Part shown: positions 9,021 to 20,249 of the stretch, piece by piece
How positions within the stretch are numbered: position 1 is the stretch's first letter
How the letters are laid out: each line of letters begins with the position of its first letter
Source: a virus
DNA length: 29,011 nucleotides
Virus record (IMG/VR): IMGVR_UViG_3300027782_000015
Span: 1 to 29,011 of that record
Direction: 5' to 3' (one strand)
The notes under the pieces: generated by a model
What the model was told of the DNA's origin: nothing
Seen by the model: only the letters and a program-made list of their open reading frames with translations
Databases searched by the model: none
Position numbers and translations under genes: made by a program

Positions 9021-9575
9021 ATGATTCAGTTACAAACAAACTCACTTATCAACATTTACAAGGCTTTAGCATCCTTTCAACAGGATTGCCCTGTAATTCA
9101 CAAGGGAACAACTGGGCATAATTACACCTATGCCGACTTTCCTACAATTCTTGAAGTAATTAATCCTTTGCTCAAGAAACACAATCTAGGATTTACCCAG
9201 CTTCTTATTGAGGATGGATTAAAGACAGTTATTTTTCACACTATTAGTGGAGAATCAATTGAGTCTAATGCAACCATTCCACAAATTACTCTTAGAGGTA
9301 TGAATGAGTATCAATCATTTGGAAGTGGGATAACCTATTACAGGAGATATGCTTTAAGTGCTGCTCTTGGGTTGGTAACTGATAAAGATACCGATGCCTC
9401 TGGAGAGAAAGCTGCCTCCGTATTTATTAAGAAACACAAGTCAATACTAGATTTAACATTAGCTATTGATATGTGCGAAAACTTAAATGAATTATCTAAA
9501 CTACATTCTTTGAATAAAGATTTAATGAATGAAGGGATAACTGCATTATTCACATCTAAAAAATCTAAATTATGA
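9021..9575 (+). CDS. erf: ERF-family single-strand annealing protein (184 aa)
   Basis: Matches the essential recombination function family: YADFPTILEVINPLLKKHNL (residues 37-56), a middle segment SGESIESNATIPQ, then QSFGSGITYYRRYALSAALG (residues 98-117) and LVTDKDTDA. These proteins anneal complementary single strands for phage recombination and genome circularisation or concatemer formation. The C-terminal 55 residues are variable. It is followed with a 4-base overlap (ATGA) by a small gene. A 45-base spacer upstream has no clear promoter. Confidence 0.88.
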   Translation: MIQLQTNSLINIYKALASFQQDCPVIHKGTTGHNYTYADFPTILEVINPLLKKHNLGFTQLLIEDGLKTVIFHTISGESIESNATIPQITLRGMNEYQSFGSGITYYRRYALSAALGLVTDKDTDASGEKAASVFIKKHKSILDLTLAIDMCENLNELSKLHSLNKDLMNEGITALFTSKKSKL

Positions 9576-10405: not shown

Positions 10406-10600
10406 ATGAGTCAAAACAAACAAATTGCAGACTACCTAAACAAAGGTAAAAAGCTAACTACATTAGATGCCTTAAACAAATTCGGATGCTTTAGATTAGC
10501 ATCAAGAATAAACGATTTAAGGAATGAAGGAATGCATATTGTAACAAAAACAATCAAGCTAGAGAACAAGAAGCAGATTGCTCAATATTCAATCAAATGA
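10406..10600 (+). CDS. Small helix-turn-helix protein (64 aa)
   Basis: Sixty-four residues: IADYLNKGKKLTTLDALNKF, then GCFRLASRINDLRNEGMHIV and a wing-like end TKTIKLENKKQIAQYSIK. This is the winged-helix pattern found in small phage HTH proteins (HTH_39 type in my recollection). The last codons overlap the methyltransferase start (10597) by 4 bases, so the two are coupled. A role in DNA binding or regulation is likely; the target is unknown. Confidence 0.7.
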   Translation: MSQNKQIADYLNKGKKLTTLDALNKFGCFRLASRINDLRNEGMHIVTKTIKLENKKQIAQYSIK

Positions 10601-11697
10601 CACACGCATCATTATTTAGTGGAATCGGTGGGTTTGATTTAGCAGCAGAATGGATAGGATGGAATAATATATTTCATTGCGAATGGAATCCATTTGGTCA
10701 AAGAGTTTTAGCCCACCATTTCCCAAATTCAAAATCTTACAATGACATTACCAAAACAGATTTCTCAATTCACGCAGGGGAAATTGATGTTCTCACAGGA
10801 GGATTCCCTTGCCAACCATACTCAAGTGCAGGAAAACGACTTGGGAAAGCCGATGAAAGACACCTCTTTCCACATATGCTTAGATGCGTTAAAGAGGTCA
10901 AACCCAAATATGTTATTGGCGAAAATGTTCGTGGACTTGTTAACTGGAATGGGGGATTGGTATTCCACGAGGTGCAAGATGACTTGGAAAGGGAAGGATA
11001 TGAAGTCCAATCGTTTCTTATTCCAGCTGCAAGTGTCAACGCTCCCCACCAAAGATATAGAATTTGGTTTGTTGCCTACTGTAAAGACTTTGGATGTAAG
11101 TCCTCAAAGACCACTAACAAATGGGAAGAACATATCCAAAACGACAGGAACGGAATACGGACTTCATCTGAGCCAAATGGCGAGATATGGAATGTTACCG
11201 ACTCCAAATTGCACGAGAATAAATATACCAACAATGGAGGAAGTAAACAAAAGGAAGGAGATATATGGAGGGGAGAAAAGAGCAATGTACCTGACACATA
11301 TTATAGCGATGGGATTACTCCCAACTCCTTTAGCATCGGAAGGAACAAAATTGACAGGATCACCAAAGGAAAATCAAATGTCATTAACCAAATTGGCGAG
11401 GCAAGGGATGTTACCAACTCCGACTTTACAAGATTACAGCAACAGCACTTTGCCTCCGAGTCAATTGAAAAGGAAAAATTTAGCAGGACATCTTTTGAGA
11501 GAAGGGATTTTGCCTCATTCCCAACTAAATCCCCAATTTGTGGAGGAAATGATGGGATTCCCAGAGAATTGGACTCTATTACCTTTTCTAAATGGAGAAA
11601 CCAATCAATCAAAGCATATGGAAACGCAATAGTTCCTCAAGTAGCTTATGAGATATTCAAAACCATACAAAGTTTTGATGATTTAGTAAATGTTTAG
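10597..11697 (+). CDS. dcm: DNA (cytosine-5) methyltransferase, Dcm type (366 aa)
   Basis: Transfers a methyl group from S-adenosylmethionine to C5 of cytosine in DNA. Motif I is LFSGIGGFDLAAEWIGW (residues 6-22). Motif IV is GGFPCQPYSSAGKRLG with catalytic Cys72. Motif VI is GENV (108-111). Motif VIII is HQRYRIWFVA (151-160). Motif X is YGNAIVPQVAYEIF (341-354), preceded by PICGGNDGIPRELDSITF. The region between VIII and X is long, polar and repetitive (NVTDSK, NVPDTY, DVTNSD) and should contain the target recognition part. No restriction enzyme gene is adjacent, so this is an orphan enzyme, probably protecting phage DNA. The +1 frame is open for 891 bases inside it (see 10742-11632). Confidence 0.93.
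   Translation: MTHASLFSGIGGFDLAAEWIGWNNIFHCEWNPFGQRVLAHHFPNSKSYNDITKTDFSIHAGEIDVLTGGFPCQPYSSAGKRLGKADERHLFPHMLRCVKEVKPKYVIGENVRGLVNWNGGLVFHEVQDDLEREGYEVQSFLIPAASVNAPHQRYRIWFVAYCKDFGCKSSKTTNKWEEHIQNDRNGIRTSSEPNGEIWNVTDSKLHENKYTNNGGSKQKEGDIWRGEKSNVPDTYYSDGITPNSFSIGRNKIDRITKGKSNVINQIGEARDVTNSDFTRLQQQHFASESIEKEKFSRTSFERRDFASFPTKSPICGGNDGIPRELDSITFSKWRNQSIKAYGNAIVPQVAYEIFKTIQSFDDLVNV
10742..11632 (+). CDS. Embedded +1-frame ORF inside dcm with methyltransferase-like C-terminal motifs (296 aa)
   Basis: This ORF lies wholly inside the methyltransferase gene, in the +1 frame. It is not a featureless shadow. It contains spaced repeats GLLPTV (109-114), GMLPTPN (150-156), GLLPTPL (191-197) and GMLPTPT (222-228). 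It ends with LNPQFVEEMMGFPENWTLLP (262-281), which closely resembles the LNPxFVExMMGFPxxWT segment that I recall from C-termini of many phage DNA cytosine methyltransferases. The repeats coincide base for base with the NVTDSK-type repeats of the main frame. It lacks motifs I and IV, so on its own it cannot be an active enzyme. It may be a second protein, a frameshift product or a conserved by-product of the main coding sequence. Confidence 0.4.
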   Translation: MTLPKQISQFTQGKLMFSQEDSLANHTQVQENDLGKPMKDTSFHICLDALKRSNPNMLLAKMFVDLLTGMGDWYSTRCKMTWKGKDMKSNRFLFQLQVSTLPTKDIEFGLLPTVKTLDVSPQRPLTNGKNISKTTGTEYGLHLSQMARYGMLPTPNCTRINIPTMEEVNKRKEIYGGEKRAMYLTHIIAMGLLPTPLASEGTKLTGSPKENQMSLTKLARQGMLPTPTLQDYSNSTLPPSQLKRKNLAGHLLREGILPHSQLNPQFVEEMMGFPENWTLLPFLNGETNQSKHMETQ

Positions 11698-11705
11698 TAA
11701 ATTTG
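11673..11705 (+). promoter_or_regulatory. Canonical Bacteroidetes promoter (TTTTG-N20-TAAATTTG)
   Basis: TTTTG at 11673-11677 and TAAATTTG at 11698-11705 with a 20-base gap match the -33 TTTG / -7 TAnnTTTG architecture known for Bacteroidetes. This is the best-formed promoter in the window. It overlaps the end of dcm (stop 11697) and would start RNA around 11709-11712, directly at the structured leader. Confidence 0.65.
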
Positions 11706-11785
11706 TAACGAGTGTCGGATACTCATTAAGAACTTATTGCCCTTGCGATGAACTACCAATCCGACTGGTAGGGATTCAATGGGGC
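11706..11785 (+). ncRNA. Structured leader RNA with a perfect 7-base kissing-loop pair
   Basis: Hairpin 1 is GAGT (11710-11713), loop GTCGGAT (11714-11720), ACTC (11721-11724). The stem extends through one mismatch to TAA/TTA (11706-11708 with 11726-11728). Hairpin 2 is CTACCA (11753-11758), loop ATCCGAC (11759-11765), TGGTAG (11766-11771). The two 7-base loops are exact reverse complements, so they can pair as a kissing complex. GCCC (11739-11742) may further pair with GGGC (11782-11785), just before a T run; alternatively ATTG-CCC (11736-11742) pairs with GGG...CAAT (11771-11780). It lies between a good promoter and the start of the replication gene at 11797. Riboswitch-like control, attenuation or a stability element are all possible. 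Confidence 0.6.
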
Positions 11786-11796
11786 TTTTTTATTTT

Positions 11797-12447
11797 ATGG
11801 CTAAAGACCCTGCTTTTTTATTTTACCCTAATGATTACATAGGTGGTACAATGGGTATGACCTTTGAGGAAAAAGGTGCATACATAGAAATTTTAATGCT
11901 TCAGTTTAATCGTGGTCATATGACCTCACATATGATATGTCAACTCGTAGGTCAACTATGGGATTCTATCAGGTGCAAATTTGTTCAAGATGAGCAAGGT
12001 TTATGGTATAATATCCGTTTAGATCAAGAAAAAGATAAAAGAATGTCTTTTACTCAGTCTAGAAGGAATAATATTAAAGGACTTAACCAACATACGATAG
12101 GTCATATGACCTCCCATATGGAAAATGAAAATGAAGATGTAAATAGAAATATAAATAAAGTTAAAATTATAGATACTCAGTTTGAGGAATTTTGGGATAT
12201 GTACGATTATAAGAAATCTAAGGATAAAGCAGAAAAGGTATGGAAAACTTTAAATAAAGAGGAAAAGGCTTTAGCTTTACAACACGCACCAGTATATGCT
12301 CAATCAACACCTGATAAACAATTCCGTAAACATCCTACAACCTATCTAAACAACAAATCTTTCAACGATGAAATTATTGAACGAACTATTAGTACAAAAC
12401 TTAGCTACGCAGAACTTGAATGGGAACGACTTAAAAATCTTGGATAG
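11797..12447 (+). CDS. DUF1376-like phage replication protein / replisome organiser (216 aa)
   Basis: Start chosen at ATG 11797 (MAKDPAFLFYPNDYIGGTMG), the usual N-terminus of this family; an ATG at 11779 would lie within the leader structure. The N-terminal domain (TFEEKGAYIEILMLQFNRG) is the DUF1376/YdaU-type winged helix, and the middle includes GLWYNIRLDQEKDKR. The C-terminal part, QFEEFWDMYDYKKSKDKAEK and FRKHPTTYLNNKSFNDEI, is the conserved domain of replication initiator/organiser proteins that load the host helicase. The peptide HMTSHM occurs twice (encoded at 11917-11934 and 12103-12120). This protein is the likely replication initiator. Confidence 0.82.
   Translation: MAKDPAFLFYPNDYIGGTMGMTFEEKGAYIEILMLQFNRGHMTSHMICQLVGQLWDSIRCKFVQDEQGLWYNIRLDQEKDKRMSFTQSRRNNIKGLNQHTIGHMTSHMENENEDVNRNINKVKIIDTQFEEFWDMYDYKKSKDKAEKVWKTLNKEEKALALQHAPVYAQSTPDKQFRKHPTTYLNNKSFNDEIIERTISTKLSYAELEWERLKNLG
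11914..11934. repeat. Palindromic repeat in the replication gene, copy 1 (origin candidate)
   Basis: Contains GGTCATATGACC (11914-11925), a perfect 12-base palindrome, followed by TCACATATG. A near-identical copy is at 12100-12120, 186 bases downstream. Phage initiator genes often contain their own origin as iterons, so these are candidate binding sites for the encoded protein. Confidence 0.5.
12100..12120. repeat. Palindromic repeat in the replication gene, copy 2 (origin candidate)
   Basis: GGTCATATGACC at 12100-12111 followed by TCCCATATG. It differs from copy 1 at one base over 21. The region around it is A+T-rich (12121-12180), which would suit strand opening. Both copies encode the same peptide (GHMTSHM), so protein-level constraint is the alternative explanation. 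Confidence 0.5.
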
Positions 12448-13248: not shown

Positions 13249-13342
13249 ATTTTTTTTTATCTCAGTTCCAGTATTCCTTTGTGTTTACTGCTCAGTAATG
13301 ATTTACATAGAGATTAAAGAATACATAAAAAAATATGAGTAA
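13223..13342 (+). CDS. Tiny membrane protein (39 aa)
   Basis: Thirty-nine residues: MKETLGMIKFFFISVPVFLC, then VYCSVMIYIEIKEYIKKYE. One membrane helix (about residues 8-28) followed by a charged amphipathic end. It overlaps its neighbours at both ends (13248 and 13335), which supports coupling in the operon. Role unknown. Confidence 0.5.
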   Translation: MKETLGMIKFFFISVPVFLCVYCSVMIYIEIKEYIKKYE

Positions 13343-14042: not shown

Positions 14043-14464
14043 TTACTCAAATCAAATCAAATCCTAATAATCCTAGATTAATTAAGGATCATAAGTTTAA
14101 GCAACTTGTAAAGTCTATTCAGGATTTCCCCCAAATGCTAGAACTTAGACCTATTGTAATAGATGAGAATAATATGGTTTTAGGTGGCAATATGAGACTA
14201 AAGGCTTGTCTTGAAGCTGGGTTAACGGATGTTCCAGTAATACACGCTAACAATCTAACCGAAGCACAAAAGAAAGAATTTATTATTAAGGATAACATAT
14301 CATTTGGCGAACACGACTGGGATGCTTTAGCAAATGAATGGAACATTATAGAACTAGATGAATGGGGTTTAGATATACCAGCTTTTGCTAATAATGATAT
14401 AGAAGAACATAAGGACAATACAGTAGTTGGCAAGAGTTGTCCTAATTGTGGAGTAACTTTGTAA
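14036..14464 (+). CDS. ParB-like nuclease domain protein (142 aa)
   Basis: The N-terminal about 75 residues are the ParB/Spo0J N-terminal fold: NPNNPRLIKDHKFKQLVKSI, then LRPIVIDENNMVLGGNMRLK, AGLTDVPVIHA. In phages such modules are often placed just before the terminase genes, alone or fused to adenine methyltransferases; here the methylase part is absent. The C-terminus carries a single CPNC pair in its last nine residues. A role in packaging-linked DNA processing is possible. In ParB this domain is a CTPase; whether that holds here is unknown. Confidence 0.8.
   Translation: MLITQIKSNPNNPRLIKDHKFKQLVKSIQDFPQMLELRPIVIDENNMVLGGNMRLKACLEAGLTDVPVIHANNLTEAQKKEFIIKDNISFGEHDWDALANEWNIIELDEWGLDIPAFANNDIEEHKDNTVVGKSCPNCGVTL
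14454..14461 (+). promoter_or_regulatory. TAACTTTG box upstream of terminase operon
   Basis: TAACTTTG overlaps the end of the ParB-like gene, 27 bases before the terminase small subunit start. The same octamer occurs at 15986, 18324 and 27235, each just before a structural gene. No well-spaced -33 box, only TTG at 14437-14439. Confidence 0.4.
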
Positions 14465-20183: not shown

Positions 20184-20207
20184 TTCTAATCTTACATAGA
20201 TATAAAG

Positions 20208-20236
20208 ACCCCTTGCTATTTAGTAGGGGGTTTTTT
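20208..20236 (+). terminator. Intrinsic terminator after the capsid gene
   Basis: ACCCCTTGCT pairs with AGTAGGGGGT (20208-20217 with 20222-20231), a 10-pair stem with two G-T pairs and loop ATTT, then a T run to 20236. It would reduce read-through so that capsid exceeds the tail proteins. A TAnnTTTG box follows immediately at 20250. Confidence 0.8.
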
Positions 20237-20249
20237 ATTATAAATAATG

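Follow-up and report, generated by a model that had tools for sequence, protein, structure and literature searches.

Does the short segment between a promoter and a phage replication gene encode a regulatory RNA and, if so, how might that RNA act? The question arises from a 29-kb record of an uncultivated virus, analysed here over its whole length of 29,011 nucleotides (the window). A sequence-only reading of this record had proposed that a leader RNA with kissing loops lies between the promoter and the replication gene, and covariation among homologues supports that proposal.

Layout of the leader

All features described here lie on the plus strand. The promoter consists of a -33 element, TTTTG (11673-11677), and, 20 nt after it, a -7 element, TAAATTTG (11698-11705); we take TTTTG-N20-TAAATTTG to be a promoter of the Bacteroidota type. 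The RNA 5' end is predicted, without transcript data, at about 11709-11711. Hairpin 1 (P1, GAGT-GTCGGAT-ACTC, 11710-11724) carries loop L1, GTCGGAT (11714-11720), and is followed by a 14-nt linker (11725-11738) whose conserved AACTTATT (11731-11738) occupies nearly invariant columns of alignment A1. Next come the 5' strand of an outer stem P2 (GCCCT, 11739-11743) and the 5' strand of the inner pairs P2b (11747-11748), which pair with 11776-11777. These enclose hairpin 2 (P3, CTACCA-ATCCGAC-TGGTAG, 11753-11771), whose loop L3, ATCCGAC (11759-11765), would kiss L1. After the 3' strands of P2b (11776-11777) and P2 (GGGGC, 11781-11785), a T tract, TTTTTTATTTT (11786-11796, with T6 at 11786-11791), forms a terminator-like tail that reaches the start codon of a replication-initiator gene (11797-12447); its product has a weak DUF1376 N-terminus and a primosomal/initiator-like C-terminus. 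The leader is about 88 nt long. Upstream and outside it lies a C5 DNA methyltransferase gene (10597-11697), preceded by an HTH_39 winged-helix gene (10406-10600) that stands directly before the leader in many relatives.

These coordinates bear out the two hairpins with exactly complementary 7-nt loops that had been reported, as well as their position after the promoter and before GGGGC-T6 and the ATG at 11797. Two points are new relative to that reading: a terminator-like stem encloses hairpin 2, and genes of other kinds can follow the leader. Pseudoknot-free folding of the window leader recovered P2 and hairpin 2. In single-strand folding hairpin 1 closes to a 3-nt loop, which makes the kissing state an alternative fold.

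The kissing loops covary in homologous leaders

About 280 loci were collected from relatives of the downstream protein (80), relatives of the HTH_39 protein (80) and matches to the linker pattern, and a search of 100 loci by a covariance model that left out the kissing pairs recovered 73 leaders. Once those pairs were included, 97.9% of cells in these 73 leaders were paired, compared to 76.0 ± 0.6% in shuffles (0/500), and the covariation score was 0.589, whereas slid versions reached no more than 0.129. In the same leaders, the kissing helix was 99.8% paired, with two-sided changes in 6/7 pairs and no one-sided changes. P1 (92% paired), P2 (99.1% paired) and P2b (98.5% paired) covary as well, and P2 occurs as GCCC/GGGC, GGCTC/GAGCC, GGCC/GGCC, GGGG/CCCC and AGGGA/TCCCT. 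Hairpin-1 loops in the window lineage include GTCGGAT, GTAGGAT, GTCGTTT, GTCGTAT, GTCAGAT, GTACGAG, GTTGCAG, GTCGCAT, ATGCGAC and GTGAGAT; hairpin 2 carries the exact complement in every case.

Since the model seeds had been picked for perfect complementarity, the test was repeated with a loop-independent anchor. This gave 89 candidates, three of which were not leaders, and we found at least 7 nt of complementarity in 85 of the 86 true leaders. The lone exception, L028, has lost its promoter and hairpin 1. In addition, a generic detector applied to 154 loci selected without regard to the element found 14 matches on the sense strand and one on the antisense strand, with about 0.17 per dinucleotide shuffle; a looser finder, which returned many AT-rich chance pairs, was replaced by this stricter version with shuffles. 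As judged by comparison of sequences, the loop complementarity is not due to chance, and the predicted RNA structure is well supported.

The sequence-only reading had asked for covariation of both loops and both stems in homologous leaders, and this test was passed. It had also named two alternative pairings of the GCCC at 11739. One of them, GCCC (11739-11742) with GGGC (11782-11785), is conserved and covaries; no conserved second pairing was found. Its refuting case, a leader that keeps the gene and loses complementarity, was met once: in L028, promoter and hairpin 1 have been lost jointly. Some homologues lack a leader immediately before the gene or have it one gene further up. At L028:938-1020 the promoter and most of hairpin 1 are missing and the remainder is fused to a truncated HTH_39 gene, which reflects a deletion or an assembly error.

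Promoter register and terminator-like tail

The -7 motif TAnnTTTG ends 2-5 nt ahead of hairpin 1 in 50/54 leaders. At the other end, a T run of at least 5 precedes the ATG in 79% of leaders, compared to 4.3% of 1504 other genes of the same contigs, which are A-rich ahead of the ATG. P2 adjoins this T tract, placing a conserved stem between promoter and start codon as in intrinsic-terminator attenuators generally. P2 and the T tract together look like an intrinsic terminator; termination itself is inferred, without transcript data. A simple terminator scan did not flag P2, because the stem is interrupted.

An antisense promoter over the 3' part of the leader was not enriched, with the antisense -7 motif in 4/82 leaders compared to a 14% background; therefore, a plasmid-type antisense partner is not indicated, and an antisense-RNA attenuator of the pT181 type was rejected. 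A leader-peptide attenuator was rejected as well: micro-ORFs are present in 62/82 leaders, but with unrelated peptides and frames.

The leader precedes several kinds of genes

In the window lineage, the leader precedes initiators whose N-terminal domains are of several kinds and whose C-termini are for the most part related; Pfam Lin1244_N was found in four of the initiators behind it. Compared to the window gene (11797-12447), loci such as L024, L032 and L054 have a swapped initiator N-terminus (DUF1376, Lin1244_N or others) and a related C-terminus, and keep the leader. Occasionally the gene behind the leader is GIY-YIG, NUMOD4-HNH, methyltransferase, HNH or ABC-GNAT. Autoregulation by one initiator was rejected, as these genes come from several unrelated families.

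A search of 50 whole contigs gave a match in 41, of which 39 have one copy and two have two; the second copies lie upstream of NUMOD4-HNH-type genes and have different loops. NUMOD4-HNH homing-type endonucleases with their own kissing-loop leader were seen at L150:4026, L162:7532, L467:13398 and L469:22396. At L002:1766-2911, a fusion-like ABC-ATPase and GNAT acetyltransferase protein with its own leader is inserted between the HTH_39 and replication genes.

Leaders in cultured phages and other lineages

Blast of the leader against phage isolates returned short chance matches only; the isolates were reached via the helicase instead. Flavobacterium phage hattifnatt9-1 has three leaders, at 9372 before a helicase operon (GCTTCGAC/GTCGAAGC), at 13304 before a NUMOD4 endonuclease (GTCGTCG/CGACGAC) and at 14349 before the replication module (GTGAGACG/CGTCTCAC). 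Phage snusmum6-1 has the same three, the third with GTGGAACG/CGTTCCAC. Over the first 95 nt, the third leaders of the two phages differ at 10 positions, four of which are two exact compensatory loop pairs. Leaders were also found in phage morran9-1 (GTGAGAAG/CTTCTCAC, upstream of a small gene followed by a DUF1376 gene), Flavobacterium phage FCV-1.01 (two leaders, GTAGTGC and GTAGAGAG), Cellulophaga phi19:1 (GTACGAC/GTCGTAC) and Flavobacterium phage 11b (CGGGCAGG/CCTGCCCG). The genes behind leaders in cultured phages encode DUF6291 or DUF7833 primosomal/initiator-like proteins and HNH endonucleases, with a small ORF between leader and gene in several phages. No leader was found in Bacteroides phage B124-14.

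A divergent copy stands ahead of a SNF2-type helicase on a phage-like contig of a Lutibacter MAG; the helicase was named from its sequence, and its homologues are annotated as helicase. Searching from homologues of this helicase, and from those of another initiator, uncovered leaders of the same plan whose sequences are unrelated, among them L394 (GTAGAAG/CTTCTAC), L406 (GTTGCGG/CCGCAAC), L463 (GTTGCAG/CTGCAAC), L458 (GTGGAAG/CTTCCAC) and, both read by eye, L421 (CTGGAAC/GTTCCAG) and L390 (GATGCGG/CCGCATC). Leaders of this plan but of unrelated sequence stand ahead of replication initiators, the SNF2-type helicase and NUMOD4-HNH endonucleases. In a second subclass (L050-L080), a 16-nt hairpin-1 loop pairs with the 7-nt loop of the terminator stem; this kissing helix is 100% paired, with two-sided changes in 2/7 pairs. 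The linker of this subclass, GGTTA...TAACC, could compete with its terminator stem AACCC/GGGTT, a possible classical antiterminator.

Searching some 790 Bacteroidota genomes (397 from the family of the Lutibacter MAG and 395 from its phylum) with model R2, which is lineage-specific, under strict filters matched only the phage-like contig of that MAG. A home in bacterial chromosomes was rejected on this basis, though absence is not proof.

The leader as a putative attenuator

Comparison of homologous leaders establishes, as far as sequences can, the two hairpins and their kissing helix, the outer stem and T tract, how far the promoter lies from hairpin 1, and that the leader stands ahead of the gene. 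Termination at P2 and the U tract, read-through favoured by kissing, and a trigger that sets the balance are inferred. We consider it probable that the leader acts in cis as an attenuator of phage transcription, with kissing either competing against the completion of P2 or tuning it. Transcription would start at the 5' base of hairpin 1, making this hairpin the first RNA that the polymerase produces and the first to fold. The loop of the next hairpin would then meet it while the distal strand of P2 has yet to leave the polymerase, and form a 7-bp kissing helix. Hairpin 2 would be the top of an intrinsic terminator, with P2 closing onto the U tract directly before the start codon. By competing with or tuning P2, kissing would allow only a regulated fraction of polymerases to enter the replication operon; a small molecule, a phage or host protein, or polymerase speed may be the trigger. 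P1, the kissing helix, P3 and P2, if stacked, would make about 30 pairs and about 85 Å by our estimate. A 14-nt linker, when stretched, spans about that distance; kissing and a complete P2 therefore likely strain each other unless the stack is bent. The earlier suggestion of a switch is plausible but unshown, and the direction of regulation could be the reverse.

A precedent is the guanidine-IV riboswitch (mepA motif), in which a kissing loop hinders formation of the complete terminator stem and so gives read-through (PMC11611296). Both are 5' leaders in which a kissing loop is set against a full terminator stem with a poly-U tail, and the covarying kissing helix and the P2/T tract show that a phage leader with a kissing loop also has a terminator-like stem; because the logic is alike, a cis attenuator with kissing-favoured read-through is preferred. 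Unlike the riboswitch, the phage leader stands before replication genes, and its loops vary freely yet remain complementary. No guanidine-IV hit was returned by Rfam, although the presence of this model in Rfam 15 is unconfirmed. Purine riboswitches also have two hairpins joined by complementary loops, but the phage leader lacks their enclosing P1 and three-way junction, as had been said of the window: its sole conserved outer helix encloses hairpin 2 alone. The attenuators of pT181-type plasmids (PMC4878617) likewise place a leader with a terminator before a replication gene and use a loop-loop contact. Their partner is an antisense RNA, whereas the phage leader contains its own complement and shows no antisense promoter.

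In the P4 CI and P1 C4 antisense RNA immunity systems, complementary segments in one phage transcript can terminate it early. The phage leader is alike in being a phage RNA with complementary segments in one transcript; unlike these systems (c4 antisense RNA in Rfam), it has no Rfam match and relies on exact loop-loop kissing of neighbouring hairpins. HK022 put RNA is a two-hairpin RNA made right after a phage early promoter. It gives read-through of later terminators, whereas the phage leader has its own terminator-like stem and kissing loops.

The attenuator reading has its own weaknesses: P2 is short and interrupted, and start and termination lack transcript data. The P2 end also lies only about 12 nt before the ATG in nearly all leaders, a constant closeness that would equally suit translational control, the main rival. 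Here, the kissing structure would control ribosome access, perhaps bound by the initiator or the HTH_39 protein, and the conserved GAA/GGA internal loop and AACTTATT linker would fit this reading. We nevertheless think this unlikely, as the genes behind the leader are unrelated, which speaks against one protein regulating its own gene, and the T tract resembles that of a terminator and is unusual ahead of starts in these phages. An immunity or copy-number RNA acting in trans (P4/P1 or ColE1-type), in which the terminated leader kisses nascent leaders of its own type, would account for loops that are diverse between phages and not cross-complementary within a genome, as well as for the replication gene that follows. 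It is improbable: the same complementarity in cis, mostly 13-16 nt away, should win, most contigs have one copy (39/41 of those with a match), and no antisense promoter was seen.

The remaining readings fare worse. A promoter-proximal two-hairpin RNA at phage operon starts could be a put-like RNA for processive antitermination, acting on RNA polymerase, or a replication primer at an origin, yet it finishes with a terminator-like stem of its own and also precedes homing endonucleases and methyltransferases, which is unsuited to an origin; we give this very little weight. Two complementary loops in one RNA, with letters that change together, recall multimerising RNAs such as phi29 pRNA, in which the loops join different molecules. 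That is scarcely credible for an element that is always a leader adjoining an ORF, with up to three different ones per genome, and belongs to replication rather than packaging modules. A protein operator in DNA would also keep two half-sites of a dyad complementary, but the separate stems covary too, the signal is on the sense strand (14 compared to 1) and the register to promoter start and T tract is fixed, leaving an inverted repeat at the DNA level similarly hard to defend.

Novelty and regularities of the kissing sequences

The view that no described family has this layout held in the Rfam covariance-model search it had called for: Rfam 15 at the gathering threshold gave no match in the window, the divergent loci or the cultured phages, and at E ≤ 10 the region 11600-11900 of the window gave chance hits only. 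No description of the leader family was found in the searchable open-access literature, a scope that leaves out many journals and a 2017 survey of candidate RNAs (224 RNAs). Attenuators and kissing-loop leaders are already known as kinds; a phage family whose loops vary freely yet always stay complementary appears undescribed. It would be a family of cis-regulatory RNAs upstream of replication genes, present in freshwater phages that have not been cultivated as well as in cultured phages of Flavobacterium and Cellulophaga, and its occurrence in the cultured phages makes the leaders directly testable. If kissing gives antitermination, viruses would be using guanidine-IV-like logic to time genome replication. 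Since the loops are free to change while pairing, they form a natural series of orthogonal kissing-loop switches.

On the hairpin-1 side, 24/41 distinct kissing sequences start with GT, including those of otherwise unrelated leaders. The predicted kissing duplex energy averages -9.2 kcal/mol, compared to -5.9 kcal/mol for random 7-mers of phage composition, a difference partly due to 8-9 nt stretches and the G+C requirement of the detector. The linker is 13-16 nt in most leaders, and leaders within one genome show no strong cross-pairing of loops. Tentatively, kissing-loop terminators in Flavobacteriia phages may make up one large class, flexible in sequence and serving as switches at operon starts (replication, homing endonucleases), with loop 'addresses' insulating leaders of the same genome from one another; we regard this as possible and no more. 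In the window, the GT start is at 11714-11715, and the matching AC ends loop 2 at 11764-11765. Past the capsid gene, at 20206-20240, the window also has a plain terminator, ACCCCTTGCTATTTAGTAGGGGGTTTTTTATT, with a T tail of the leader's kind.
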